NCBI GenBank assembly: GCA_918026815.1
Contig: CAKJVC010000083.1
Location: 248,001-312,000, forward strand
Origin: Chalara sp. BL73
Lineage: Eukaryota > Ascomycota > Leotiomycetes > Helotiales
Length of the DNA: 64,000 nt
Reading direction: 5' to 3'
The notes beneath the pieces are model-generated. The model had not been told where the DNA came from. It made no database searches and saw only the letters and a list, made by a program, of their open reading frames with translations. Both the position numbers and the translations under genes were made by a program. Below, piece by piece: positions 12,046 through 62,395 of the stretch; within the stretch, counting starts at the first letter, position 1, and every line of letters starts with the position of its first letter.

Positions 12046-12329
12046 AAAGAGGCTGTGCAGCATTGCGCCTCATATGCCAATTCATCACTGGGCTTTCCGA
12101 TGAATATCTAATATCGACCTCGCACAATGTAAAGGTGATCTACATTCACTGGCAACTGGCCATATCAATCAGGAGATATTGAATGACACCCATGTTTGGT
12201 TGAGGATTTATTGAAAACCGCTTGCGTCGTCCCTCACGCACAGACTTTACTTCAGGTGGATAGTCGTGCACCAATAGCGATACGAATATCGGCCAGCCGT
12301 GCGCCGCCAAAAGCCTTCGCTGCGAAAGT

Positions 12330-15300
12330 ATGGAACCAGTAGGTCTAAGTGTCGGCCTTTTAGGCATGTTAGGCCTCTTTAGTGCCTGTATAGATATCAT
12401 AGAGAAGTTCGACACATTCAAGGCTTTTAGTCACGAATTGCGTCAGCTCTCTTCCATATTTGAGGTGGATAAAATTCGATTCCAAGAGTGGGCTTGTGCC
12501 GTAGGCATTTCCAACGGAAAGCTAGAGAAGACGCACCATGCGCGACTAGATGATCCTGAAGTTACCAAGTCTGTCCAGGATGTGCTTCGGAGCATCTGTG
12601 AAACATTAGGAGCAGGTGATCAGATGCAATCTCGACTCAGGATACAACCAAAGAACTATGAAAAAGCCTTGCCACCACCAAAACTCGAGTTTTCGACCAA
12701 ACCTACAGTAAACAAAACAGAGACCCACGTATCTGTGAAAGGCAGACTGGACTGGACCTTCCGGCGTAGAGGAAAGTTTGCGCGCCAAGTTGAGATGTTC
12801 CATCAGCTACTAGAGCAACTATTTAGCCTCGTACCTTTATTACATGGTAGCCTCGCTAAAACCTCTCCAGATACTAGAGAAATGAAAGGTATAAAGAATA
12901 TATCCACCGGCTTTAGCTTCATGCTAACTAGTTATACTTACAGACAGCACAGCGATATCTACACATGTATTTACATCCCTCCAAACTGATATCCAAATTC
13001 TACTCAAAGAGAAGCAAGAATCAGCTCGACGCCAAGCACTGAAGAATGTTGATGAGTGGCTTGATGCGGTTATATTGGACTGTCAGTTCGAGGACTGTGT
13101 CGAAGCTAGACTAGAAGGCACATGTGAGTGGATTTTTGAACACTCCATGTTTCAAGCGTGGATGCAACCTAGTCAATATTCCGATTCCAAAATCCTTTGG
13201 ATCAATGGCGGTGCAGGGCAAGGGAAATCAGTCATGTGTGCCAAAATTGTGCAATTTTTACAATCATCCCAGTCGCAGCCGTCTGCGTATTTCTTTTCCT
13301 CAGTTCATGCTCGAGCTAAAGGGAGGCCAAAAGATATTGCTCGCTCCTGGCTCTCGCAGCTAGCCCGACAAGACCCTGATGCGCTCGATACGATTAGAGG
13401 CTACATGGAAGCAAAAGAAGCTGGAAGGAGAGCCTTGCAACCAAAAGTCTGGGATATTCTTGAGGACATTCTTCAAAGCAAACCCCAACAAACATTGATT
13501 TTAGACGGACTCGACGAGTATGACCGAACTAACGACAACCGTGCTTCTTTCCTTAGAATATTAAGAAACAGAGCAAAAGCCACCGGCACACGAATTCTTT
13601 TAGTCAGTCGCAATGAAACTGATATAAGGCTGGAGTTCCAACAACAAAACAATGATAGTCCCGAAGGCTGGATTGCTTTTGACTGTCAGATCACTGAAGA
13701 TAACGTACGTCCTGATATTACTCGGTTTTCCCAATACACAGTCGATTACAAACTTCCAGGAAAAGACCAAGACCTGCGACAAGACATCGCGCAACAAATG
13801 GCAAATAAATGCCAAGGCATGTTCCTGTGGATCAAAATGCAACAGGATCATTTACGTGGTAGTAAAAACCGGAAGAAGTTACAAGATATTGTAAACAAAA
13901 TGCCAACTGGCTTAACCAATACTTACTTGAGGAATTGGGAAGCTATCCAACAGCAAGAAAAAGAAGAACGTGAGCGCGCAATTACAATTTTGCGCTGGAT
14001 TGTATTTGCAGCACGCCCTTTAACAGTTTCAGAATTAACAGATGCTCTTCTTACTTTCAGGTCTGACCATATAGACACATTTCCTATTGATGAGCTTCCG
14101 GAAGTTATTGATGACGAGTATATTAGCGGCGAAATTAAGGATATTTGCGGATCACTGGTTGACTTTTCAGCATCAGGATCACAAGACTCACCAGCATCTC
14201 GTACCATTCACCTGATTCATTTTTCAGTGCGAGAATTTTTGGTATCCGTTCTTCCAACCCCATACGAATTCCACGACCTCAAAATAGCAATATCCCAGGA
14301 AACATGTCATCATACGGTCTTGGCAGAAACTTGTTTTCGGTACCTTAATTATTCCAATGTTTGGCAAGTCTCAAATACCTCAACTAGCGATAAATGCTTA
14401 CGTCCATTTATCAATTATGCCTCTACGTTGTGGCCTACCCATTATCGCCAGGATCATTCTTTATTATTGTCGATATTTGGGAAATTCTTTAAAGACGATA
14501 ATCTCAGCTTTCAGAATTGGCGTGACTATTTCGAGTCGAACTATATCCCTGGCGAGAACGAGCCTCCAAATAAAATATTCGAACCATCAACTTCACTATA
14601 CTATTTAGCTCTTTTTGGAATAATCCCCGCTTTAAAAGTAACTGGTCAAGAAGTGTACCGAAACATAAATCTGGCCTGCGGCCGATTTGGGTCACCATTA
14701 TCAGCTGCGTGCTCAAATGGGCATTTAGAAACATTTGAGATGTTGATTAAATTAAGTCCGGACATCAATGCAAAAGGAGGGCAATTTGGTAACGCTTTAA
14801 ATGCAGCTATATCGAAAAACCAAGAAAAGATAGTTAGAACGTTAGTAGCTTTAGGTGCAAGCCAGAACGCTCGAGATTTCATGGGTCGAAGCGCCGTATA
14901 TATCGCATCTAAAAGGGGGTTTAAAGACATGGTAAACCTTTTGCTGCAACATGGGGGAGACGCTATAGCTACAAATACGTACGGTTACAGCCCGTTAAAC
15001 GTGGCAGCACATAGCGGTCATCTTGAGGTCGTGCAGCTGCTGCTGGACAACAATGCCGACTCGACTGTTGCCAATAATCGTGGATGGACGCCGCTGAATT
15101 CTGCTTGTAATAGTGGCCATTTCGAGGTCGTACAGCTGCTGCTAAATAACAAAGCTGACTTGACTGTTGCCGACAATGACGGATGGACGCCACTGAATTC
15201 TGCTTGTTATAGCGGCCATTTCGAGGTCGTACAGTTGCTGCTGAATAACAAAGCCGACTTGACTGTTGCCGACAATAGTGGATGGACACCACTGAATTCT

Positions 15301-16935
15301 GCTTGTAATAGTGGCCATTTCGAGGTTGTACAGCTGCTGCTAAATAACAAAGCCGACTCGACTGTTGCTGACAATAACAAATGGACACCATTGAATTCTG
15401 CTTGTAAAAAAGGCCATCTCAAAGTTGTACAGCTGCTGCTGGATAATAAAGCCGACTTGAATGTTGCCAGCAATAATGGATGGACACCACTGTATGCTGC
15501 TTGTTATAGCGGCCATTTCGAGGTCGTACAGCTGCTGCTGAATAACAAAGCCGACAAAGCCGACTTGACTATTGCCGACAATAACGGATGGACACCGCTG
15601 TATGCTGCTTGTTATAGTGGCCATTTCGAGGTCGTACAACTGCTGCTGGACAACAATGCCGACTTGACTATTACCGACAATAGTGGATGGACACCGCTGT
15701 ATGCTGCTTGTTATAGTGGCCATTTTGAGGTCGTACAGCTGCTGCTGAATAACAAAGCCGACTTGAATGTTGCCAGCAATAGTGGATGGACGCCACTGAA
15801 ATCTGCTTGTAATAGTGGCCATTTCGAGGTTGTACAGCTGCTGCTGAATAACAAAGCCGACAATAACGGATGGACACCACTAAATGCTGCTTGTTATAGT
15901 GGCCATTTCGAGGTCGTACAGCTGCTGCTAAATAACAAAGCTGACTTGACTGTTGCTGATAGCAATGGATGGACACCACTGCATTCTGCTTGTAGAAAAG
16001 GCCATCTCAAAGTTGTACAGCTGCTGCTGGATAACAAAGCCGACTTGAATGTTGCTGATAGCAACGGATGGATACGACTGAACTCTGCTTGTAATAGTGG
16101 CCATCTCGAGGTCGTAAAGCTTATCACTTCGGGAATGCTGTCTGAACAACTTGACTTGATAACAGCAGATCCAGTAAAAGAGCGACAGTATGTAAATACT
16201 ATCGATTCGTTGAATCGAACACCACTCCACATTGCTGTGTACTATGACTTTGCAGAAATCGTGGAGGTTCTCATTGAGAATGGGGCCAACCCTCGGTTGG
16301 TTGACTGTTCTGGTCGAAGTTGTCTGGATTGGGCGACGTCCCGTTCTCAAGCATTACGCCAGAACATGGGCTCATGGTATGATGGTCATTGCATGACACC
16401 TGTCCATGAACAAAAAAAGATTTTGATCTCTACTGTGCATGACTTGACTCAGAGAATAAAATCTCTTAGGAAGGATCCCTTGAATGGAGCCCAGTTCTTT
16501 TATGAGCTTGGAATAGGTCTTTTATTACTCTCTGATATGAAAGAAGCATCCATCGCCTTTGAACAAGAGTTGATCCTTGACTCGGCTCAAAAAAAATTGA
16601 AGCATGACTCTATGTGTGATCACTGTCAGACCTCCAATAGTATTGAAGGGCTTAGATTTATCTGCCTGACCTGCTTCACTCTGAGCATATGCAGTCAATG
16701 CATGGATAAACATGCGGATAGTAGCAATGCTGACCTACGTTGCAAAGATCACAAGTTTCTTCAGATCCCTCATGAAGGCTATAATACTAACAATCTCGAC
16801 TCCCTCGTTTTGTCCGGCGAGGCGCGGATTACTTGGCTAGATCGCCTAGCTGAAAAGTATGCGAACTGCGACTATTCTGGAAAGTCGGAACAAGAAGAGG
16901 TGGTTGTGGTCAACCCACTCTCTACCACACATTAA
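12330..16935 (+). CDS. HeLo-NACHT-ankyrin-ZZ NLR-type receptor
   Basis: A fungal NLR of about 1516 aa. Exon 1 (12330-12888) encodes a HeLo-like cell-death domain (MEPVGLSVGLLGMLGLFSAC at the N-terminus). Intron 12889-12943 (GTATAA to TTACAG) is followed by exon 2 from 12944. The NACHT domain has Walker A GGAGQGKS near residues 275-282 and Walker B LILDGLDE near 373. About 14 ankyrin repeats span residues ~765-1318. Eleven of them (15000-16110) are near-identical 33-residue units (GWTPLNSAC-SGHFEVVQLLL). A TPR-like helix pair follows, then a ZZ-type zinc finger (CDHC ... CLTC ... CSQC ... DH) near 1411-1460. In the family, ligand binding by the repeats drives NACHT oligomerisation and HeLo membrane toxicity. 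The repeats carry a 9-bp tandem duplication (15553) and a 15-bp deletion (15860). The open frame begins upstream of any internal ATG, so the spliced start at 12330 is needed. Confidence 0.9.
15000..16110 (+). repeat. Tandem 99-bp ankyrin-coding repeats
   Basis: About eleven consecutive 99-bp units in the receptor gene, highly similar at DNA level and not only at protein level. Differences concentrate at a few codons per unit (NSAC/YAAC, CNSG/CYSG/CKKG, DLTVAD/DLNVAS). That pattern suggests concerted evolution with diversifying positions. Indels occur at short GCCGAC direct repeats, as expected from slippage. Confidence 0.9.
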
Positions 16936-21069: not shown

Positions 21070-22944
21070 TTAGACAATACTAATCTCAACCTCCTTCACA
21101 CCGTCTTGACGGACTTGTCCCTCCATTAGCCCGTTAACTATGCAATCCCCAATAAGCTCGTATGCCTCGGATGCATGTATCCTACGTAAAAGGAATGGCG
21201 TCCTCGCCTGAGGAAAAATCACTAAGTCGTCACCGGCCACAGTATCCGGCGGTGCTGCTCCAAACATTCTATTCTCCAGAGTTATGCCTATGCGATCACG
21301 ACTTAGGTCCAGATTTGGCGGCCTACTTGCTGGAGTGTCGTCGACTCGAACTAAAGAGTTCTGGCCGAGATCGGGAAGCTCCGGAAGAACGGACTGAACC
21401 TTTGATACTTGTACACCGCGTATCCGGAGTGTGTGACCGATAACATTTATAGGCTCTGTATCAGATGATTTCCAAGAGCCAGCCTTGAAGCCTGTCGCGC
21501 GGAAAAGAGGCTTGTAAAGCGCAGGGATACGCCAATCTGGGACCCAGGATGGGATGTCTTTGGGTACATAACCCGCGGATTCCCCTATCCCTGCTGAATG
21601 GGATAGTCGAAATGCACCAGCGCAATGAAGGATGTCGAACGGGAACAAAGACCTAAGGGCCGACGAGGCAAAATTGATATAAGTCTTCGATGTGGGAATG
21701 GTATAGTTGGCACTGAATGTGATCACGCTTGGTATTCGCGATTTCTCTCCTAGGACCCGTCCCTGTCCCGAAAATCTTAATCCTGGGAGCCACGACCTAG
21801 AGTGAATAGTATCATTGCCATCATCGGGCTGAACATCGCTGGCAATACCGATGTAGGCGAAGATCCTGTCCCGATCATCACTACATTGGGCGTGCTGGAA
21901 CTTTAGTAGTAGGGATATGATGTTAAACCACTTCGCACCGGACCTCTTCAGCCCTCGGAATTGGATAATAGTTTCTGCAATGTTTTTATCGACCCTGGTG
22001 AGCTCAGATGCTAGTGGCTCTCGTCCCAATTGTCCCATAAGAAATTCCCACGGGACCTCGTTCTCCTGGCTGTTTCCTTGAACGGGAAGATGAACCTGAA
22101 CCTCGGAGGCTGCCAAAAGCTCCTGAACAACCTGGGCAAGGTTAGCAAGAAGCAGATGGGACTTACAAATGACACATACCCATCTTCGAGAGAACCAATT
22201 GCTTTCCAGCCAGTTGGACACACCAAATCGGTCACTGAGGAAGACATGAACCAATTTGGCACGTCGGTAAATCTTTGCCATGTGCTGAACTTGTTGACTT
22301 CGTTCCTGGATGTCTTGTTGATTGATGCAAATGGCATCAATCCAAAGCCCAGTCATTGTTTGAAAGTCATAATCTCGGTCCCAGGGTCCGTACAAGGAAC
22401 GTCGCAAGCGAATTAGAATATCATACAGTCGAGGCGTAATCCTTAGATGAGAGCTGGCATCATCACAGAAGAGGTACTCAGTGAACTCAGCGGGTCCCCA
22501 GACGTATGATACAGCTTGGAATGACATTTTTGCCGAGACATCTTGAAAGCGGACAGTGCTGATGTGGCATTGCAGTGGATCATCATCTGAGGCTTGATTG
22601 AGCCTTAGTAGACGGATGCTCCCTGACGGGAGAGGATCATATCGATATGGGACATAACGGGCGCGTTCAAGCGCTCCTAGGTCTTTCGAGGGCCGCTTTC
22701 TGGAATGGGACCAGTCAACAGTCTCATATGGCGCAAGCCGGCGATCTAAACGAAGAATCTTTGCATTGAGAGCTTTCCAATATCTCTTGTTAACATTACT
22801 ACGCGATTTTCCAGAAGGCTCGGATCGCTTCGAATTTTGGGCGCGCTGCACCTTCTTAGCACATCTATACTTGCGAGTCTCCACTGCTTCCCGTGCCTTA
22901 TCCTTCGCTAATTCCTTTCGCAGGTCTGCAATCTGTTCTGCCAT
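21070..22944 (-). CDS. HET-domain protein
   Basis: A heterokaryon-incompatibility protein. It has a basic, coiled-coil-like N-terminus (MAEQIADLRKELAKDKAREA), then the HET domain with AVSYVWG (~143-149), LWIDAICINQQDIQERSQQV (~197-215) and the SRRW...VVQEL motif. The HET module induces cell death in fungal non-self recognition. The C-terminal ~350 residues have the usual WVPDWRIP block and a regulatory-like tail. The frame is open throughout, but 22132-22179 looks like a 48-bp intron (GTATGT, TTGCTAAC branch, CCCAG). Removing it restores the family motif SRRW-VVQELLAA and gives 608 rather than 624 aa. The start at 22944 gives the longest sensible protein. It is convergent with the Ty3 remnant. 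Confidence 0.85.
   Translation of the reverse strand: MAEQIADLRKELAKDKAREAVETRKYRCAKKVQRAQNSKRSEPSGKSRSNVNKRYWKALNAKILRLDRRLAPYETVDWSHSRKRPSKDLGALERARYVPYRYDPLPSGSIRLLRLNQASDDDPLQCHISTVRFQDVSAKMSFQAVSYVWGPAEFTEYLFCDDASSHLRITPRLYDILIRLRRSLYGPWDRDYDFQTMTGLWIDAICINQQDIQERSQQVQHMAKIYRRAKLVHVFLSDRFGVSNWLESNWFSRRWVCVICKSHLLLANLAQVVQELLAASEVQVHLPVQGNSQENEVPWEFLMGQLGREPLASELTRVDKNIAETIIQFRGLKRSGAKWFNIISLLLKFQHAQCSDDRDRIFAYIGIASDVQPDDGNDTIHSRSWLPGLRFSGQGRVLGEKSRIPSVITFSANYTIPTSKTYINFASSALRSLFPFDILHCAGAFRLSHSAGIGESAGYVPKDIPSWVPDWRIPALYKPLFRATGFKAGSWKSSDTEPINVIGHTLRIRGVQVSKVQSVLPELPDLGQNSLVRVDDTPASRPPNLDLSRDRIGITLENRMFGAAPPDTVAGDDLVIFPQARTPFLLRRIHASEAYELIGDCIVNGLMEGQVRQDGVKEVEISIV
22132..22179 (-). other. 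Frame-preserving intron inside the HET gene
   Basis: Exactly 48 bp with GTATGT donor, GCTAAC branch and CCCAG acceptor, and no stop codon in frame. Its removal joins SRRW to VVQEL, as in other HET proteins. Confidence 0.75.
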
Positions 22945-23594
22945 TCCTATTCCTATATATGGGTCGGCGACGTTGATTGCGCTTGATCGTACAGCACTTG
23001 CAAAACATGGCTATTTAGGCAACAATTCTAATATGGCCAATGATATGACGGTGTTGGATAAGAGAGATAACCGAGATCCCGTGACAAGTCCTACCTACAT
23101 TATATCTGAAGTTATATTAAATCTATATTCTATATCTATATTCTATATATAGATATATATCTATATATGTAGGAAGTAGCGGTTTACGGATCCGCGTATG
23201 ACTCATCAGGTCACGTGGTTCGCACAACCCCACATTTGTAGAATCTAGAGTAACGTAATCCACAAGCAAGTGGTTAACACAAGCGTGTAATGACGCAAGG
23301 AACCACGGGCTAGAATAGAGGCATACGGGAGTGCGTACAATAGGCTGATAGTGATTGCCTTATCAGTGAACGAGTTAGTATCATAGTATTTAGTAATATC
23401 AAGTCTCGAGACATATAAGATCGATTTTTTGATACTACGTGTTACAGCTCTAGCTATACTCGGGGAGTACAGGGTTGAATAAAAGATCTAGTCCGAAGGG
23501 TGGGTCTGGGAAGAAGTAGGTATATCACGGATACGGAGAATAGATCCCAATAACTAAGTATAAGAATACTATTTTGAGTTGAGCACGAAGCTCC
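22945..23594. other. AT-rich intergenic with repeat fragments
   Basis: 23130-23175 is an AT dinucleotide-like run (ATATATCTATATA). 23300-23380 matches 42440-42530 in reverse (TAGAATAGAGGCATA, AATAGGCTGATAGTGATTGC). 23385-23445 matches 38870-38955 in reverse (AGTCTCGAGACATAT). No gene seen. Confidence 0.45.
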
Positions 23595-30674: not shown

Positions 30675-33631
30675 ATGGATAGCTTCGATCTTGGTCAACT
30701 CGCGGTGGACGCTCTTCCCTGGGTGAGTGTTCAGGCAACATGCGTGGGTATCTTCACTGGAAATACCAATGCTGGACATCTTGGTGGTGAGCTCTTGATA
30801 ATGGCAACAGAGGTGCCAGTTTACCGGAGAGATGGTCCATTTCAGAGGAAGTTCGAAGAACTTATGGGACTGGTTGATAAAGCTTGCTCGGTAAGTGTTC
30901 CTTGTCGCATGTTCGCATAGACTGTCTGTTCATAGACTGTCTGTTGATTGATGCTAATACTTGATAAGTGGTCTCCGGCATACGGAAACCCAACAAAACG
31001 ACCCCACTTGGCCACCTTGAAGAGAATTACCTCAACCAGGGCGTTAAAAACAGCTTCAACCCTGGTAATACTCGAAAGAGAGATCCAGGAAAGCTTGGGT
31101 CTTTTTCTCATGCAAAGCCCAGAAGTGCAGGTTTTGCTGAACATGATCCAAGAGTGCCGGATAATGAAACCCAAGGAATCACCAAACCTAGAGGCCGAAA
31201 AGATTGCCGGCCAATTGGAAAGTGACCCTAGCTACCCATCACATGTAAACAATATCCTGTATTCCCAGATGCAAAAGCAAGCTTGTTGCGCCTGTCCATC
31301 GCACCACTTGGAAAGAGCGAGACTTCGGTTGGAAGTGGAAAGGCTAGATTATAATAAAGCATCGATTCCATTTGAGTTACTCTTTCGTCCTAGTACGGCA
31401 CTGTCTGATAAAGGAACTCGTCCTCACAATATAATATGGCAGGAAACGAAAATAATTGTCCCTAGGTAAGTCCTTCTCACGACATGATTCACGAAGCGTG
31501 AACTATGGGTAAAAGCTAACCATATGCTTTCCTTTTTATATAGCAAGAGGGATGTTGACCAAGAACGACTGAAGAAAAAGGTACAAATTCGAGTCGAAAG
31601 CGAGCCCTGGGAAGCGCCTTCGTGCTTGCCTCTGGCTGCACCAGAAAAGCTCAAGAAAATTGGACCAGGAGAGTTTTGCAAACGTATCGGCAAGAAGAGC
31701 GGCTCTCGTCTTTCTTTCAAGATCCACGAGAAAGCATTAAGGCTAGTTGATGGCCCAGAAGAACTTGCACAACGTAACGTGAAAATGGTTGAAGGCATAT
31801 CACTCGCAGAATTACTAGCCAAAGCACGCTCCTCCATGACAAAGAGTGTGAAAATCCAAATTGCGTATACGATTGCAAAGTCCGTCTGGCAATATTACAA
31901 CTCCTATTGGATGTCAAGCCCGTGGACACATGAGAACATCTATTTCCTAGAAGAAAGAATCCATGGCACCCTTTCCTACAAGCCACACCCGTATTTTGCA
32001 GCCCACTTCAAGAAACACAAGAATAAAATACTGGACTTCTATGCCTCTCCGGACTTGACATTCAACTATCCTTACGTCCTTGCCTTGGGGATATTACTCA
32101 TTGAAGTTGCTACCGGAAATCCTTTCAAGAATGAGGACTATTCCGGTCAATGGGACGAGACGCAGATAAATGACTATTTCGACTTGGCTTGGACATCTGC
32201 AGCGCAAAGCAACCTTGGTGGTTCCCTCGCCGATGAGAGTTTCGCAGTCGTCCTTCGGAATTGTTTGGATGTTGATCTTTTCCACGATGCACCATTTGAC
32301 GCAGATGATCCCGAGAAGAACTTGGAAACTCGGCAATCGATTTTGTACAGCAAAGTGGTAATGCCTTTGGAAAAGCTCGACAATGCCTACAGGGGTCATT
32401 GGGAACTACCAGATATCCAGCAAGACCGTAATGTTCAGGCGCCGCGCTTAAGCAGCTCCGAGCAGAACAAAACCTATATCGAAAGGGAAATTTGCAAGCC
32501 AATAGCCGACCCAGTCTTCCTTGCGTCAGACGCTGTTGGCACGGGAAGGTAAGACACATGGAATCAACTATCGAGTCAATAATCCGTATGTTGACCACTA
32601 TTATAGATGGACTCCAAAGTACTGGCTAGAGCAAATAGATAGCATAAATGCAGGCTTGGGAGTTCTCGCTAGAAGTAACCCTGATACTCCTCCAATCAAG
32701 ATTGCAATCCTTGATACTGGCTGCAATATGGACGCAGAATTCTTTTCGACTTTCACAGATGACGACGAGCGCTTGGACGGAGACCATTGGTATGACTGGG
32801 TAAGAAATGAGGTCCAACCAATTGACGAACATGGTCATGGAACGGCACTTGTTACCCTTATGTTGAGAATGGTTCGAAATGCAGAAATATTTGTGGCCCG
32901 TATTGCGAAGAATGCTGAAAGTCTGCGGCATGCAGAAGACAATGTTGCAAAGGTACGGCTATCTATTGTGGCTGAGGCGACTGGAATTGTGACTGATCAG
33001 TGAGCAGGCGATAATACACGCGGCTAAGGAGTGGAATGTCGATATCATTTCGATGTCGTTTGGCTTTCCAACAGAAGTGGCCTCAATTAAGAACGCAATA
33101 CGGAAAGCAGAGGATCACAAAAAATCAGCAATCGTCTTTTTCGCTGCCGCCGCAAATGATGGAGCCAACACACAGGAGATGTTCCCTGCATCTATGGAGT
33201 CAGTCATTTCTGTACGAGCGACCGACAGCAATGGATCGTTCGTGGGCGCATACAATCCACCTCCGTCTGCCATGAAAGAGGATAGTCGCCTCTATGGTAC
33301 TCTTGGGGAACATGTTCCGTATGACTGGGCAAATGAAACATTTATCAAGTCAGGCTGCTCTTTAGCAACTCCGATCATGGCCGGAATCACGGCATTGATA
33401 ATGGAGTACTTCACTTACAAGGCAGGGAGATTCGAAAAAAGCGATAGCGTTCTAGAGCATATTCGGACCCAGAGAGGTGTTATTCAATTATTCAAGGAAA
33501 TAGCGGTTAAAAAAGGGAACCAGCGATTTTATGTTGCTCCATGGGATCTGTTTGAGAAGGGCGAGGAAAATCGTTTATCAATTGCAAGAACTGCAATTGG
33601 TAAATTACCTCGCCAACAGATCCGTAAATAA
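30675..33631 (+). CDS. Subtilisin-like (S8) protease with DUF7580-like N-terminus
   Basis: Five exons: 30675-30890, 30969-31465, 31544-32548, 32607-32952 and 33008-33631. Together they give 895 aa, with all phases agreeing. The first ~570 residues resemble the helical DUF7580-type region of fungal death-related proteins (KSVWQYYNSYWMSSPWTHE). The C-terminal peptidase has the full triad: Asp in ILDTG (~609), His in GHGTA (~650) and Ser in GCSLATP (~806), with the oxyanion Asn in AANDG. In Podospora a related subtilisin (HET-Q2) cleaves the gasdermin HET-Q1. Here a gasdermin-like gene abuts tail-to-tail, strongly suggesting that role. The N-terminal part would sense or restrain activity. Intron 1 ends in AAG and contains a tandem ATAGACTGTCTGTT repeat. 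No signal peptide, so it is cytosolic. Confidence 0.85.
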
Positions 33632-33632
33632 C

Positions 33633-34481
33633 CTATTTATCTTTGAATGAAATACACACACATTCCCCTTCTCCATCATTGAGTCTCAACTGTGTGACCT
33701 CTCTCCCTTTACCGATTTCAACAAGATCAAATGCAGTGGCAAAGCTCGATTCTACTTCGACCGTGTCATCTTCGACCGCGGCTTTGTCACTAAGTAATGT
33801 AGCCTTAAGCCGACATTCCTTGAGTTCGAAAGTCTTCTCTTTGAATCCTTTCGGTATGATCTTCAACAGTTGATAAGCGAACACAATGTCGTTAGTTGAC
33901 TGGAATCCATCACTTCTACTATTTTCCACTGAGCCACCAAGACCAACTCCAACGGTAGCCTGAGAAGCGAGAGGTGCAGAGACCTCGGCATGTGCAGCGT
34001 GTCGTGAACACCGTTCAGTGGACAGCTCGAACCCCTTGGCGATTTTAAGTCCGGTGATCATATATATAGGCTTGGACAGGAGATTGTCGAGGCGCATGAG
34101 CTTGCGTACCTTCGGGTCCTTGACTCTTTCGTTAACCTCTTCGATCGAAGGCTCGTCTATGTAATAGGTTGTCTCGAGAGACTTAATGATGTAATCGGTG
34201 CTCGTACTCTTATCGCGATCCGTCCCAGAATTGAATCCAATATTCTGGAGGAATTGACCCCATACACTCAAATGGATATTGCGATCTTTGCCAAGGTGCA
34301 ATCTCCAATTTTCATCTGTGGTTGTTTCGGTGAGTGGCGATGGTTTGCTCGAATCAGCCTTAGTGAGTACACGGTGAGGCTTGAAAGGATCAACAACAAT
34401 GTTTCCGAGTGCAATTGGACCATTAGGACGAAAAGTCCAATTTGGGGCAAGCATGTAAGTGGGGTTCTGCACTGAAGCCAT
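33633..34481 (-). CDS. Gasdermin-like pore-forming protein (HET-Q1/RCD-1 type)
   Basis: A single-exon protein of 282 aa, about the size of Podospora HET-Q1 and Neurospora RCD-1. The N-terminus reads MLAPNWTFRPNGPIALGNIV, the β-strand start typical of gasdermins. A glycine-rich VGVGLGGSVENS stretch is followed by NDIVFAYQLLKI near residues 178-208, as in the pore-forming fold. The C-terminal ~50 residues after a charged linker (~230-245, SDKAAVEDDTVEVES) could be the inhibitory tail removed by proteolysis. No TM helix or signal peptide. The neighbouring subtilisin gene ends one base away on the other strand, the arrangement known for fungal gasdermin loci. The family call rests on motif memory and context. 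A structure prediction would settle it. Confidence 0.75.
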   Translation of the reverse strand: MASVQNPTYMLAPNWTFRPNGPIALGNIVVDPFKPHRVLTKADSSKPSPLTETTTDENWRLHLGKDRNIHLSVWGQFLQNIGFNSGTDRDKSTSTDYIIKSLETTYYIDEPSIEEVNERVKDPKVRKLMRLDNLLSKPIYMITGLKIAKGFELSTERCSRHAAHAEVSAPLASQATVGVGLGGSVENSRSDGFQSTNDIVFAYQLLKIIPKGFKEKTFELKECRLKATLLSDKAAVEDDTVEVESSFATAFDLVEIGKGREVTQLRLNDGEGECVCISFKDK

Positions 34482-35320
34482 GTTTGATATTGAGAGATGC
34501 GTTTTGTTATAAGTTGATGAAGAAGGAAGTACGTAGTGATATTATCAAGCCTCGCACTTCCATTGTTCCCCTCCTGACTGTAACTGCGGAACGCCCCGCT
34601 CGAGCTGAACTTGTCCAGATTATTCTTATGGCTCGGATTGGTGGGGGAAGACGTTTTCAACCTGCCGCCACAGGGAATCAATGCCCAATAGCAGCTATCC
34701 CCGTAAAGGTATTTGTTCCAGTGAGTCATCTCTAGCCACAAAGGGGCTTCAGAGAGGCGGAGCCTGTAAAGATGCTGATTGTGCGATGTCGGCGACTTGA
34801 AATCGCTTGGCGAAGTCGAGTTACAGTCCTGTAGGGATCCGAGATCAATAGGGATAGAAAATCTAGTCCGTGGGTTGTATGTCTGGGGGAAAGTAAAAAT
34901 ATTGTCACGATCCCAACACAGGCGCTAGTGATGGCTGTTTGTAAGGCATCAAATACGAAGATTCTAAACTAGAAAGAAAAGGTGTAACTACTGCTGGATC
35001 TGCCCTTAAATAACCATGGCCAGTACCAGGATCCTAGCTGGGTGAACCAATGAGCGTTCGCGGTTGTGGCGCGACATGGTCAGTGCATCCTGCACGTGAT
35101 CTCTTGGACCGTGATAGCTGTAAAAGCTTCGCTTAAATATCTTAAATAAGGGAAATAGCGGGGGTGTGCCAAGGTCCTAATCGTCTATGTTTCAATCGTA
35201 CCCGTCGATCTCCCCGCGTGTTTGACCCAGGAACAACAACTCCTCAGGAGCTCCATGAATTACAACACACTCCTTTCGAGTTGATCAAATTGCCTCATCC
35301 ACGAATTCCACGAATTCCAC
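34482..35320. other. Intergenic with LTR family C copy
   Basis: Contains the promoters of the gasdermin-like gene (leftward) and the HET gene (rightward), plus the LTR at 34903-35116. Near 35265-35325 lies a repeated ATTCCACGAATTCCAC motif. Confidence 0.5.
34903..35116 (+). repeat. LTR family C copy
   Basis: TGTCACGATCCCAACACAGG ... CTTGGACCGTGATA, about 214 bp, inverted ends TGTCACGG-like. Shared with 43312-43536. No clear target duplication. Confidence 0.7.
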
Positions 35321-37711
35321 ATGAGTCCTTTACATCTGAAACGTAGCTTGAAAAGTCGACTGAAAGCGATTACCAGCAAAACTCGGGCTGAAAACCCAGA
35401 CCAAGGCACAAGCAGCAAGCAAGAGCTGGGAGAGGCTCGGACGGTCGAGATAAGAAAAAATGCCGCTGAAATTCATCCAATCAACGAAGTAGCAAATGCA
35501 GCTTCAATATCGGGTCAACACAGCTTTCAGGCAATCCCCGGCGAAGGCTGGATCCGGGTCCTCGATCTTCAGCCTGCCGGTGATCTGAAAGCAGACCTTA
35601 AAGCCACACTGCGCTTCGTCCATCTGGCGGAAGGCCCGCTGTATGATGCCATTTCTTACACATGGGGAGAACCGCTCTTCACAGAACGCCTAACTATTGA
35701 TGGATTGCACCTGGCCATCACAAAGAATCTCTCCAATGCACTTCGACATTTTCGATCCCAAACCGACACAGGCACGCTCTGGGCTGATTCCGTGTGCATC
35801 AATCAGCAAGACGACGTCGAGAAATCCCACCAAGTCAGCATCATGGCAGATATATACAAGAGCGCGCGCAATGTGTTGATCTGGCTGGGCATGGAAAGCC
35901 CTGACACCTGAAAGGCATTCGACTACGTGGAGGATATTACTCGGAGGTACAATGTCCGGGATGTCATCGATCAGAAGATGGATAATTTCTTCTGGACCGC
36001 ACTGCCGACCTTTAAAGCCGATTTTCCTGAGCTTGATGCGTTGGCCATCTGGCAGCGGAGCAACGACCAGCGTTTTGTGGATATCTTCTCTCGGGAATGG
36101 TTTACTCGACTCTGGACTGTGCAAGAGGTTGCTATGGCTTGTGTGAACTTCAGTGCTGTTGTACACTGCGGTGGCCTTCAGATGAAGTGGGGCAAGTTGG
36201 AAGGCGCCATTCTACTGCTTCTCGCCGCGATTAGTCGTCTTGGAGTGGAACTCGACAGCATGGAGGCACTTAAAAGAGCAAACACCATCTGCGAAGTCGG
36301 CTCTCATTTCGGGAACGTCGAAGCGATCCCTATGTCTCTCATAGTCAATGCATACCAGCATTTTGGGAAATACGTCGAGTTGCTCCGGACCCAACACTGC
36401 TCAGATGCACGGGACCGAGTTTACGCTCTTCTTGGTCTGAGGCCAAACTTCTTCAAGGTTGGGGCTTCGGAAAATAACGGGCAGCCAACTATCTACAAAA
36501 TGAAACCGGACTACAATATATCGGCACTGGAATTATATCGCAAATTCACCCTTGGTATGGTCGTCAGTGGCGATTTTGATTTCCTTTTGAGTGCAGGAAT
36601 TTGGCAGCGGCGTATCAACCATCTCACCGGAGGACGTCTATATCTCTCCGGCACAATCAAAACAACTAAAGGCCACTGGTTCACAAGAGAAGAGTCTGAT
36701 ACCCTCAAAGACGCTGCCCCTCACAGCCTGGCAAGCATATTCGCCCGAGCCCCGCCTCATCTTGATATCGAGGCAATTAGTCTCTGCGAAGTGATCCCTG
36801 GGATCCCGTCCCTTCCTTCATGGGCCACAGACCTCAGTAATTCCGGCAGGGAGCCATACACACTCCCCTGGGTCAGCGAACTAAGCTCTAGCGAATTCCG
36901 AGCCGGCGGTAGCCTGTCAAATGTCGGGGTTCCCGGTAGATTGAACTATGACCAAGACGATTTAGACGCTTCCGGAGCGAGCGACTCCTTACGACGCATT
37001 TTTCTTCAAGGAAGACGCCTGGACACTATGGAGTCGCAGGTAATCATCCACGAATGGGAACCTGATCTTCCAGGCTCGCGGCTGTGCTACATCCGTTCCA
37101 TGGTTATGAACTGCAGAACTGTGCTTCAAATGGCAGTTGAAAACGCTGGAGGCGAATGGGTAGTGCAGGAGAGCCCCGATATGACTTTTGCTAGGACAAT
37201 CGTGAGTGACGGATCCGGGCTGATGTTTCGGAGTATAATGAAGGACTGCTTTCTCGAAGATGAGCATGTCGATCATGAGAAACTGTTGTTGTATTGGAAT
37301 ACTTATGATCGGTACTGGCAAGGTAAAGACTTGGACAACCTGCAGGAATATCACTCCTACGACGACCTTGACGCGAGTGGTACAACTCCAGAGGAGCTCG
37401 AAATGGTCAAGCAATACCACCGCTGCCTAGTTGAGACGCTCGAGGGACATATTTTCTTTTGCACCAAGGAGGAGGGAATGATTGGACTTGCCCCCTTGCC
37501 TTCGAAGTTTGGCGACACTCTGGCAATCATACTTGGAGTTCGAAATCCGCTTGTGCTCAGGTTCGTGACCGACAGCACGGACAAATCCGGCTTTCTCATC
37601 ATTGGACCTTGCTATCTCTCTGGGGTTATGGATGGATCTCAAGCTGTTGCCCCAGAGGGTCTCAAGGGAGATGATTTGTTCAAGTCTTTTCACAGTATTC
37701 CCTTGATATGA
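35321..37711 (+). pseudogene. HET-domain gene with one internal stop
   Basis: A 797-codon frame broken only by TGA at 35909-35911. Before it lie a basic N-terminus and the first part of the HET domain (DAISYTWGEPLFTERLTID; LWADSVCINQQDDVEKSHQ; NVLIWLGMESPDT). After it, in the same frame, come KAFDYVEDITRR, the REWFTRLWTVQEVAMA motif and the long C-terminal region. The stop could come from TGG by a G-to-A change. No intron signals surround it. A shorter protein (196 aa, half a HET domain) or read-through could exist, but inactivation is the simplest reading. It is located next to the gasdermin-like gene, with opposite orientation and starts facing away. Confidence 0.8.
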
Positions 37712-39557: not shown

Positions 39558-41507
39558 TTAAATGAGAGTAACTTGCGTCCACTGTACCCCAGGTTTGTTG
39601 TTTTGCCACTTTTGAATCATCTCGCCATACATAACACCACTAATATAACAATGCCCAATGACCGTGTATTTCCCGAGTCCCCCAATCGGTCTAAGAATGA
39701 ATGGAACGTCCGCGCCAAAAAGGATAGCACAAATGTCACCTGTTTGTAGTGTAGGGTCTCCTAGCCCCCAAAACCCCCTATCAGTCGTGAAGAATCGTCT
39801 ATTTGAACAGCAATGTTGCATAGCTCCCTGTATTCCTTCCATTACCCCGGAAATTTTGTGTGTCTCTAAAATCTGTGTAGGGATGGCCATATTTAGCTTC
39901 CTGCTGACCTTTTCTACGTATAACTGGCTGTTACAATAGGAACAAAGCTGGCAAAATCCCGCGACCCAGCGCTCCATGCTAACTTGGTGGGGGTAACAGC
40001 CCAGCACTGAGGAGAACGCCTCAAGAACGCCTTTTGCATAGGCTTGAGGTTGCTTCTCTTCTGCTAACTCTATGAGGTTCCAGCATTCCTCGATGACTTC
40101 ACCTAGATTCAAGTTTGGTGACTCGCGGAAAATGTTAGTTCGAAGGTGAATAACTCCAATGAACACAGCAGAGACCTTAAGTTTATTGCCAATAATTTGG
40201 AATTTGGTAACGCTTTTGTTCTCCTTCCGAAGGCTTGCATCCCAAACTTCCCAGAAAGCTGCCGGTGCATCTTTGAATTGAAAGTCCCACTGTGGAATCC
40301 ATGATGGGACAGGGTCACCTGATGTTAGATCTTTATTAATCGGGTGCTGTACCTGCACAAGAAAGTTGAGCGACTGGCGAGCGAGCCGAGAAGCAACAAG
40401 CCGGTTGAGCTCGCCTACTTTCAAGGAGTAATCGGCAAGTAGAATTGGCTCATTTGTGCCTGGCAAAGTCGCTTTTGGGTGTCCCAGGAAAGCATATACG
40501 TGGTCCAGCGGGTTACTAGCTTCGAAACGTTTCGAAGCCTCCAGAACAAGAACGAAATCGATATTGTACTTAGTTGTCAGCCAGCCGATAAATTGTTTCA
40601 AACCGGGTGTGTGATGAACCCAAGTGTCTTTGTCAAACGTGCACCAAATATTCCAAAGGGCGTGATAAGGGGCGTCCAGGACGATTTTGGCAATGTCAGG
40701 CCCAAGCAGTTGTTTCAAACCTTCAAGAGCGGCACAGAAATAAACAAAGAGTGCGATCTGGCTGAAGTTGACCGTCGAATTACCCCACATGGCTGTTGCC
40801 ACTTTCGCTAAGCCCACCTCTTGCAAGACCCACACTCGTTTGAACCAGGAGAGGCTGTAGAGAGCTCTAATGCAATTCCTGTTGCTTATCCCCAACTCAG
40901 AAGAGATTGTGCCTTTGACCGACTTAAAAGCTCTTTTGAAAGTTAGAGAATGCTCCTGGTCTGGGCCTGGTTCCGTATTATTGAGTCGAAGATGATTCTC
41001 GGCTTCCTTTTGAATGGCGGCATTGATATTAATCAACGACCCAAATGCATGCTCAGCGGAGTCGTTCTCATCTTCCCCCAACCAAACTAGTACCTCCTCC
41101 GCTTTTTCATAGATTTTTCCCATGAGGTCAACTTGATGCCCTTTTTCGACTGCGTTTGACTGGTCAATACAAATGGCGTCCGCCCAAATCGTGACGGTGT
41201 GAGTTGGGTTTCGTATGTGGCACAGACCTTGGAACAGACTTGAGGTGATCCTCAGGGAATAACCAGAACAGGTAATCTCTGAGTCTCCAACAATCTCGCC
41301 CCAAACATATGACAATGCCTTGTATGGAGGAGCATTGCTCAGTTCGCATTCGAAAAGGCTGCATCCCAAAGAATCATGATCCCTCCCAGGATGAATTTGT
41401 AAGAATCGAAACCAGTCCCCGGAATGCAACGGACTGTATGCGTACGTTTTTGCCACGACATAAGGCGAGGCTTGCTTCCTTCGGCCTAAACTCGAAGATA
41501 GGGCCAT
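39558..41507 (-). CDS. HET-domain protein
   Basis: 649 aa, no intron needed. HET domain: ALSYVWGEIVGDSEITC (~65), IWADAICIDQSNAVEKGHQ (~107-125), VLVWLGEDENDS and WFKRVWVLQEVGLAK (~217-231). The C-terminal half carries the WIPQWDFQF block and ends with YTVIGHCYISGVMYGE, the usual tail of this HET subclass. It is the most intact HET gene here. The HET module triggers incompatibility cell death when activated. No partner gene (NLR or HeLo) is directly adjacent. The stop lies within 30 bp of a family D LTR, whose poly-T/A run (39532-39560) may act as terminator. Confidence 0.9.
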   Translation of the reverse strand: MALSSSLGRRKQASPYVVAKTYAYSPLHSGDWFRFLQIHPGRDHDSLGCSLFECELSNAPPYKALSYVWGEIVGDSEITCSGYSLRITSSLFQGLCHIRNPTHTVTIWADAICIDQSNAVEKGHQVDLMGKIYEKAEEVLVWLGEDENDSAEHAFGSLININAAIQKEAENHLRLNNTEPGPDQEHSLTFKRAFKSVKGTISSELGISNRNCIRALYSLSWFKRVWVLQEVGLAKVATAMWGNSTVNFSQIALFVYFCAALEGLKQLLGPDIAKIVLDAPYHALWNIWCTFDKDTWVHHTPGLKQFIGWLTTKYNIDFVLVLEASKRFEASNPLDHVYAFLGHPKATLPGTNEPILLADYSLKVGELNRLVASRLARQSLNFLVQVQHPINKDLTSGDPVPSWIPQWDFQFKDAPAAFWEVWDASLRKENKSVTKFQIIGNKLKVSAVFIGVIHLRTNIFRESPNLNLGEVIEECWNLIELAEEKQPQAYAKGVLEAFSSVLGCYPHQVSMERWVAGFCQLCSYCNSQLYVEKVSRKLNMAIPTQILETHKISGVMEGIQGAMQHCCSNRRFFTTDRGFWGLGDPTLQTGDICAILFGADVPFILRPIGGLGKYTVIGHCYISGVMYGEMIQKWQNNKPGVQWTQVTLI

Positions 41508-42797
41508 AGTTGATGTCTCTTTAGGAGCTAATGGTAAGGGAGCTGTCTGATATAAATAAAATGGAAAAAGAGACCTTCATTTTAAGGAATCATCGCTCTC
41601 ACAGCCTTTAACCAGTAATTATATTTCAGATCCGGAACTACCACCGGAGATTGGAACGAATTCTTTATGCATCCAATTTAAACCTGAGCGATGACTGAGC
41701 TGCATCTGTCGCCCCATTCTGTGCTCGATATTACCCCTCAACTAGTCACAGTGTTCGCTCCCCTGCCTTCTGCCAGCTAGGTTTCACAGCATAACACTAT
41801 GATATGCAATACTTGTCACAAGCCTAACTAAAGCAATAGAGATATGTGGCTGCCAGCACGCGGCCAGCACGACACCTTCGAACTGAACCATGCCTGAAGA
41901 ATATTCTCAACCTAGGGCCTGTCCTGATATAAATTTCTTTGACAGCCTTCCCCTTGGCTTTAGATTCCCTGGTAATAGTTACAAACGCGTATTCTAAAGC
42001 TTTTACTTACGCCGCAACAGTTGTAAGTCCGGCGAGTACTTAATTAGAAAGCTTGCTTTCTTGCTAAAGTCAGGACTCAGTGTGTGGGTACATGTGACAC
42101 TCACCGGGGGGATGGGTGAATTCACAATCATGTGACTTAAAAAGGCGTGTCGCATAACTGTACTTTTGCACGGAGTGTTTACAGGCCCGCGCTTTAGCTT
42201 TGAGCGCAGTGATATAAGGGGCCTTGGGGGCTAAGCCCCCAAGGTTGACGTTTCTACAAGCTTCTTACTTTTCTACAGGGTATAACAATCGAAGCATGGA
42301 TGGAGGCCACGGCGCAGGAGCAGGGGGTGACGATCAGGGTATGAGGGGTTCAGAGCCGATATGGGGGAGAGTCGGAGTCGCCTATATAAAGGCCAGCTCC
42401 TACTCTCTACAGCTGTTCCTCATGTTTTTGTATCCTTTGTAGGTAGACCTATAAGGCAATCACTATCAGCCTATTGTACACACTCCCATATGCCTCTATT
42501 CTAGCCCGTGATTCCTTGCGTCGTTACACAGGCCTTTTCACGGACCGTTTACAAGCTATTTAGTGTGTTGGCTGCGAAAGCTGAGCGCGGCAAAGTAAGG
42601 GGGCTTGGGGGCTTAGCCCCCAATTTACAGGCTCTTGAATCTTTTACAGGCTTTTGACACTGCTGCTTTCGACTCTGAGCGCAGCTAAGTTTGAGGGCTT
42701 GCCCCCATATAAAACGTGATATCACTAATGAAAGCAGCCTTTCTATTCTCGATCGTTACGCCTAACGAGCGCCTTCATTCTAAGCTGCGGTCTATCG
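41508..42797. other. Intergenic, degraded repeats
   Basis: No gene supported. The palindrome-like string GGGGGCTTAGCCCCCAA or its variant occurs near 42225-42243 and 42600-42622, with a third shortened GGGCTTGCCCCC near 42698. These mark copies of one repeat. 42440-42530 matches 23300-23380 in reverse. Confidence 0.4.
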
Positions 42798-60317: not shown

Positions 60318-62395
60318 TTAAATAAGGTCAAAGTCTTCTAAGTCAACATTAACGTTCCGTAGTGTCTCTGGCGTGACTTCTAACACATGTGGGTATCTTT
60401 GATACTCTTTGTAATGAATTCCCATTTCCATCAAAATCGCAGATGGATCAGTCTTTAACTCGTTTGTCCGAATATCCAACAACGCAACACGAAGATTATC
60501 AATGGCAGTGGTGCTAAGAGAGTGACCGAACTTATTTATCGGCCTGTAAAAGCTGGGGAAAGGCCCGTGGATCATCTCGCCCATCATTAGGCCCGGCACG
60601 TAACAAATGCCCACAACCTGATACATTCTGTCTGGCGCGGAGGTTGTAGCATATTCCCGTAGCAATACTGGAAGCCTGCAACCAAGTAACACACAAATAA
60701 AGTCGTTCGGGCAGGTACCAAGTGGTGCCAGCCCAATAAGGCCATCAACAGTCAAAAAAATACAGCGCCCCACAATGTTTGTAGCGCATGCCCGGAAAAA
60801 AGCTTCAGATGGATGCATTGATGCTTCCTCTAACTCCTCATAACTTTCATCAGTCGTCCATATGGTGCGTAGATCTCGTACAGTTCGATCAAACTCAGGC
60901 CAATATGTATCAGGCGGGTCAAAATCATGGGCAAACCCCAAACCAACAAAGACGCGAGCGTAAGCCTCAATAACTGTTCCCCCATTCTTGTAAGGTGCAT
61001 CGAAGTCCTCCAATGGCTTCAATTGCCTTATTAGGTCGACCATGTCGTCGTGAGAGACCGCTGATTCGTAGTCGCCAGTGAGTGCGCAGCGAACTTCACC
61101 TATCCTCGACGCCCGGACGCCAGCAACACGGAGCACTCCTTGCCCAAGAAACTTGACCTGTGCAGATATCCACCCACAGGCACTCCACGTCCCCCAAGGC
61201 AGGTTTAGCTGTTTTAAAGGACTTGACCAGTCTGGAACCCAACTTGGTATATCCAGGACTTTAGAGGAAAGTTCACAGGTATCTAAAATTTTCAACGAAC
61301 GACGCTGGGTGATGATCTTGAGGACAACCTCTATATAGATGTCTGAGACAGATTTGGAATAATCTGCCTGGATGCCTAAACGTTGATCAGGCTCGCATAG
61401 CAAGCTGAATACTGCGTAGATCATGTCTCGCGGATCGGTGCTTTTGGAGCCGCGAATATCTGTTCGAAGGTCACGATAACCCAGAAACCCTGGTCTTATC
61501 CTACAAAGCTGTTCAACCAGTCTTAGAGATCGAATGTAGGTGAGCCTCCGTTCTCCAATACGCCAAATATCGCCAGGCTGGCGAAAGATGGAATATGCCC
61601 CTTTTCTAAACGAATCCCACTCAACCTCTGTACTTCCGCATTTCACTAGAGCCTTTGTGGAAAGGCCAATTTCTTGACGGATCCAGATTCGCTCAAACCA
61701 CGGCCGCTCAAAGAGGGAACATATGCAGCGCAGTTCCTGCTCGTTAAACGGTGCCTTCGCGGCGAGATCCCCCCATGCTAATTCCGAAGTGCCACGTGCC
61801 GGCTTTATGCTTGTTGTTCCCCAATTGATTTCAACTTGGCGGCCAACATGAGCTATGGTCTCAAGAGCACGACCGCTGTCGTTCTCCTCTGGGCCCAACC
61901 ATGCCAAAACGCGATTTGCAAGTCGATAAATGTTGCCCATGAGAGGGATTTGGGAATTTTTTTCCTCAATATCCTTTTGATTGATACAAAGAGAATCAAC
62001 CCAGAGTTGCCGATCCTCTGTTGTATATCTGAGGTGCCGAAGAGCGATATCAAGGTTGTTTGTAATGGAAATGGAACTTCCGTCAGACATTATTGCATTT
62101 TTGGGGTTCTTTGGTGAGCCCCAGACATATGAAAGGGCCTCATATTGGAATGATCCAGAACGCAGCTGAGAACAGCTGGACTAGACTGAATTAGAGGGTC
62201 GGTAACTTGGACAGCAGGAAAATCACGTACTCCCAACTGTATCTCGCTCAAAGAGATGCGAATTGGATCCAAAAACGAGCCTGGATAAAGCGTGACAACC
62301 CTGATACTCTGGCCAGGTGGATTTAAAGGCTCGTAGACGAGACGTTTTGTAATATTAGCTGGGAGCGACATCTGAGGCAAGGCTATTTTCATCAA
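60318..62395 (-). CDS. HET-domain protein
   Basis: Two exons: 62231-62395 and 60318-62165. Intron 62166-62230 (GTACGT, CTAAT branch, CTCAG) keeps phase 0, about 670 aa. The HET domain opens just after the intron (FQYEALSYVWGSPKNP), continues with LWVDSLCINQKDIEEKNSQ and VLAWLGPEENDSG, and holds RPWFERIWIRQEIGLS. The C-terminal half has SWVPDWSSP and the RMYQVVGICYVPGLMMGEMI tail, similar to the HET protein at 39558. The start at 62395 (MMKIALPQMSLPA) is the most upstream ATG. The third Met (62374) is also possible. Expected role: incompatibility-linked cell death. Confidence 0.85.

Follow-up and report, generated by a model that had tools for sequence, protein, structure and literature searches.

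In Chalara sp. BL73, a gasdermin gene and the gene of a subtilisin-type protease (family S8) stand end to end, and with a probability of about 0.8 we regard them as a two-gene, pyroptosis-like cell-death unit consisting of a gasdermin and its dedicated activator. The pair lies in a stretch of 64,000 nucleotides, hereafter the window, covering positions 248,001 to 312,000 of contig CAKJVC010000083.1 (C77). In the mechanism we propose, the gasdermin would be kept inactive by its short C-terminal tail, and the protease of 895 amino acids (aa), its dedicated activator, would be held off by a front part containing the pseudokinase-like domain DUF7580. Some cue acting on this front part would cause the protease to cut the linker of the gasdermin, and the freed N-terminal domain could then oligomerize into membrane pores, leading to the death of the cell or hyphal compartment.

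The 282-aa product of the single-exon gene is supported as a fungal gasdermin by sequence profiles and by a structure model, and would accordingly be expected to form pores and cause cell death. Searched as a single sequence, the protein gives only E 0.024 for homology to RCD-1 and HET-Q1; a profile made from a 64-row alignment of its relatives matches RCD-1-1 with E 5.7e-12 and RCD-1-2 with E 3.4e-10, which are the closest solved structures both by profile and by fold. The AlphaFold2 (AF2) model displays the fold of a gasdermin N-domain. The original prediction had proposed a gasdermin from the letters of the DNA alone and had named an unlike fold as the sign of an error; the matches to RCD-1 and HET-Q1 and the gasdermin-like predicted fold uphold the proposal.

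The five-exon gene with a complete subtilisin domain, likewise anticipated, was recovered: five exons joined via GT-AG introns give an open frame of 895 aa (30675-33631, forward strand), Pfam recognizes the S8 domain, and the catalytic residues D609, H650, N738 and S806 are all in place. PAC_17180 of Phialocephala subalpina (889 aa), which can also be aligned to subtilisin DY, aligns over the full length of the protease with 59% identity. This alignment shows no gap at exon junctions 3/4 and 4/5, a 1-residue gap a few residues past junction 2/3, and a gap of 13 residues in PAC_17180 exactly at junction 1/2, so that the gene model is least certain at the intron 1 acceptor; as another relative, P0129, carries a similar insert at this position, the model may stand. 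A Pfam scan at E 1 listed no propeptide family in the protease, which is probably cytosolic.

As predicted, the two genes are arranged tail to tail, with a single base (33632) between their stop codons, and both are found in the same haplotype of the assembly. Chance open frames are ruled out, since both proteins have homologues. With the stops one base apart and given normal 3' untranslated regions, the 3' ends of the transcripts would have to enter the opposite gene; at the convergent stops (33629-33635) the transcripts thus probably overlap, and an antisense effect is possible.

To place this pairing in the context of the genome (58.7 Mb), we searched it with three gasdermin queries, which returned three intact open reading frames (ORFs), one each on C77 (in the window), C133 and C84, and compared these with the set of 36 S8 matches, merged to 27 loci. 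All three intact gasdermin ORFs have an S8 match at less than 3 kb, whereas a random locus would fall within 5 kb of one of the 27 S8 loci with a probability of 0.0046; adjacency in three of three cases would thus arise by chance at about 1e-7 under independence. The orientations differ between the three pairs: convergent on C77, tandem on C133 and divergent on C84. In the C133 pair (L007 1631-5168), DUF7580 and S8 frames, split by what look like introns, follow one another upstream of the gasdermin and share its strand, and the C84 pair (L008 938-5328) has an unassigned 524-aa frame upstream of its S8 partner. A NACHT gene (NPHP3_N, DUF7791) follows the C84 pair.

The pairing also extends to other genera. 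Among the database matches, listed as clusters at 90% identity, Phialocephala subalpina has the gasdermin PAC_17181 next to the protease PAC_17180 (consecutive tags; a contig of 444,536 in both), and Dactylonectria macrodidyma has EDB81DRAFT_791250 and EDB81DRAFT_791255 (a contig of 3,629,350 in both); the latter pair is related but not clearly orthologous, given that its protease matches 64% of the query at 32% identity. Both genes thus have homologues that stand side by side within and beyond this genome, the co-occurrence whose absence was to refute the original prediction. It should be noted that C77 holds many HET and NLR-type (NOD-like receptor) matches, so that unrelated members of these families could become neighbours on it; but the S8 match beside each of the three intact gasdermin ORFs found and the retention of the pair in Phialocephala subalpina make it highly improbable that the two genes are chance neighbours or share only an immunity-rich environment without joint function.

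The linker of the gasdermin (residues 218-232) has a predicted local distance difference test (pLDDT) score below 50 in the AF2 model, and the tail behind it is better defined, with strands at 243-247, 261-268 and 273-280. Column 230 of the 64-row alignment is Leu in 62 rows; at column 229, 52 rows show Phe or Tyr and 10 show Leu, the 282-aa protein being among the latter. Subtilisins prefer large hydrophobic residues at P1. A subtilisin-type site would fit this linker, because a conserved hydrophobic pair precedes an acidic run in a loosely structured segment, and cleavage would most likely take place at the A-[FY]-L motif, here T-L-L, at residues 229-230. The original prediction had put the cut at about 230-245, which is close, the hydrophobic motif being at 226-230 and residues 231-244 forming the acidic stretch behind it. 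A similar K-x-A-V-L motif and the acidic run are kept, as judged by eye, in the C133 paralogue. By analogy with HET-Q1, which is cut at F238 and loses 40 residues (PMC10989679), the tail is a candidate inhibitor of the gasdermin.

A different route to activation is suggested by the nearest solved relatives, RCD-1-1 and RCD-1-2, which need no cleavage (PMC12881547): the protein could be a real gasdermin activated, as in RCD-1, by the meeting of two divergent alleles after cell fusion, with the S8 protease acting elsewhere or only tuning the response. We consider this quite unlikely in view of the length of the protein (282 aa vs. 257 and 244 in RCD-1), the conserved linker motif of its family and the S8 match accompanying each of the three intact gasdermin ORFs found.

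Several observations nevertheless count against a protease-activated gasdermin unit of this kind. Confidence in the AF2 model is no more than moderate (mean pLDDT 75.9), its best Foldseek template modelling (TM) scores are low (0.43/0.50), and the profile reaches the HET-Q1 pore only with E 0.0016 in a partial alignment; as this similarity is weak, the F238 site of HET-Q1 cannot be mapped on the 282-aa protein. Most relatives have F-L or Y-L at 229-230 where this protein has L-L, a cut after residue 229 would take off 53 residues rather than the 40 of HET-Q1, and the C84 paralogue lacks the linker motif (by eye). In addition, no DUF7580 match was found for the S8 partner on C84, and a gasdermin partner was matched for two of the six proteins combining DUF7580 and S8, but for none of the other four, among the matches listed. 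Two further gasdermin matches, L009 4725-5200 (C80) and L045 4494-4997 (C147), contain internal stops and are probably relics, although introns may also explain the stops; neither contig has a listed S8 match, C147 being only 28 kb long. The C80 match lies near a DDE-transposase-like frame, as seen by eye.

The N-terminal part of the protease (about 570 residues), which had been taken for a sensor or regulatory region, holds DUF7580, a probably kinase-like domain for which sensing would be a plausible role. In structure models DUF7580 probably adopts a kinase-like fold, and its profile weakly matches IRAK4 with E 0.0064 and MLKL with E 0.44. In an alignment by eye to the BRAF motif, the position matched to the HRD Asp is occupied by Asp in none of 20 aligned rows, and the string DFG is found in this stretch in one row (P0132); by this comparison DUF7580 lacks the catalytic HRD/DFG residues and appears pseudokinase-like.

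A database search with the whole protease, in which 7994 candidates were scored and 17 proteins passed E 1e-10, returned DUF7580 with two kinds of partner: S8 in six proteins (P0121, P0128, P0132, P0134, P0136, P0137) and PNP_UDP_1 in nine (P0123-P0126, P0129-P0131, P0133, P0135; the named ones belong to Aspergillus, Talaromyces, Arthrobotrys and Orbilia), while P0122 and P0127 have S8 without DUF7580. PNP_UDP domains have been described as ATP-hydrolysing immune effectors (PMC12881547), and a receptor of modular build is suggested by the finding of DUF7580 with either of two output domains. The source genome contains 20 DUF7580 matches, 19 of them over the cut-off; only two (C77 and C133) lie close to a listed S8 match, each of them beside a gasdermin. 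DUF7580 does not appear by name in the main text of PMC12881547 or in the literature searched. Tentatively, and with somewhat more doubt than confidence, we suggest that DUF7580 serves fungi as an immune receptor module that stands alone and works independently of NLRs. It would act as a pseudokinase-like guard, with the output chosen by the domain fused behind it: S8, firing the neighbouring gasdermin through a conserved A-[FY]-L code in the linker, or a nucleotide-destroying PNP_UDP domain, as in Aspergillus, Talaromyces and Arthrobotrys. If true, the logic of MLKL/RIPK would have a direct counterpart here, linked to pyroptosis.

Table 1. Features of the gasdermin-protease locus, in window coordinates.
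Feature	Position	Strand	Basis and remarks
Protease exon 1	30675..30890	+	aa 1-72; splice model and relative PAC_17180
Protease exon 2	30969..31465	+	first 13 residues missing in PAC_17180; splice model
Protease exon 3	31544..32548	+	bulk of DUF7580; splice model, Pfam
Protease exon 4	32607..32952	+	S8 Asp609 and His650; splice model, Pfam
Protease exon 5	33008..33631	+	S8 Asn738 and Ser806, stop codon; splice model, Pfam
DUF7580	31251..32381	+	aa 167-517, crosses intron 2; Pfam PF24476, E 2e-25
Peptidase_S8	32695..33418	+	aa 603-825, crosses intron 4; Pfam PF00082, E 6.2e-20
Gasdermin gene, 282 aa, single exon	33633..34481	-	open frame; profile and fold matches
Predicted pore-forming part, aa 1-217	33831..34481	-	AF2 model; boundary inferred from pLDDT
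Candidate cut site, linker motif aa 226-230	33792..33806	-	family K-A-A-[FY]-L; here K-A-T-L-L
Acidic stretch, aa 231-244	33750..33791	-	net negative in 64/64 rows
C-terminal tail aa 245-282, candidate inhibitory	33636..33749	-	strands and one helix in model

The remainder of the window encodes further proteins of immunity type. Its 37 frames of at least 160 aa, 20 of which were covered by the Pfam scan, include a HeLo frame (E 1e-20) and a NACHT/NPHP3_N-ankyrin frame whose start it overlaps (12264-16935, forward strand); together they probably make up a single HeLo-NACHT-ANK NLR gene interrupted by an intron. HET-domain frames are found at 21070-23010, 35285-35911, 39558-41576 and 60318-62180. 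The gene adjoining the gasdermin (35285-37711, forward strand) has one in-frame stop (35909-35911) inside its HET domain and is either a pseudogene or affected by a sequencing error. In a test made after the fact on the scored subset of candidates (150 of 766 for HET, 150 of 308 for NPHP3_N), C77 (333.8 kb, 0.57% of the genome) holds six of 150 HET matches (0.85 expected), 8 of 152 NPHP3_N matches (0.86 expected) and two of 23 HeLo matches (0.13 expected); the window itself holds three of the 150 HET matches (0.16 expected). Fungi have been proposed to have regions like bacterial defence islands (PMC10197012), and C77 is a candidate for such a fungal counterpart.

This neighbourhood, with four HET-domain frames and the HeLo/NACHT-ankyrin frame pair in the same 64 kb, also bears on whether the locus serves heterokaryon incompatibility (allorecognition), in the manner of het-Q, in place of general defence or stress, a use that is compatible with the mechanism proposed above. 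The same two protein classes govern incompatibility in Podospora (PMC10989679); however, het-Q1 and het-Q2 are idiomorphs at one locus (PMC12881547), whereas here one haplotype has both genes, and het-Q has been proposed to derive from an older pathway through a rearrangement that left a constitutively active sensor (PMC10197012). An incompatibility locus thus appears rather unlikely. For the preferred reading, a gasdermin with its own protease activator, the support extends to protein family and gene pairing, and the function is what we infer.

The arrangement itself is a known one, as gasdermin-protease clusters have already been reported. About 1900 gasdermins have been described in 400 fungal genomes (PMC10197012, PMC12881547, PMC10989679), about 80% clustered with protease genes and about 63% with S8 (PMC10197012); such clusters are their commonest arrangement, and the linked proteases are multidomain putative sensors (PMC12881547, PMC10197012), and the legend of Fig. 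6 of PMC12881547 already speaks of their fusion to "predicted kinase-like domains". HET-Q1/HET-Q2 of Podospora anserina resembles the present locus as a pair of a gasdermin of about 280 aa with a short C-terminal tail and an S8 subtilisin. HET-Q1 is cut once, in its C-terminal part (PMC10989679), as is predicted here; HET-Q2 is a 388-aa idiomorph of HET-Q1, in contrast to the 895-aa protease with DUF7580. The two-gene Q2L clusters (Clave et al. 2022, via reviews) share the multidomain protease beside a gasdermin gene; we found no difference in kind from these, the present protease having the S8 catalytic residues and an adjacent gasdermin gene expected of a Q2L activator. RCD-1 of Neurospora crassa, whose structure is the nearest solved one in both the profile and the fold comparison, differs in being shorter and activated by the meeting of two alleles without cleavage (PMC12881547). 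Similarity to the bacterial gasdermin-protease defence pairs is marginal in sequence (bacterial gasdermin 7n50, E 0.07). With MLKL and other immune (pseudo)kinases, DUF7580 probably shares a kinase-like fold according to the models, with weak support from sequence; the MLKL pseudokinase controls its own pore-forming bundle (PMC12881547), whereas the kinase-like part at the present locus has a protease as its fusion partner. The stimuli and regulatory parts of gasdermin-activating receptors are counted among the unsettled matters of fungal immunity (PMC12881547), and against this background the locus offers a compact unit of two apparently intact genes, with a sensor-candidate domain that recurs and a precise candidate cut site. 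To the known systems it adds a front part identified as DUF7580, which is probably kinase-like and occurs with S8 or PNP_UDP partners, together with a conserved linker motif, the recurrence of DUF7580, S8 and gasdermin within one genome, and a neighbourhood of immunity type.
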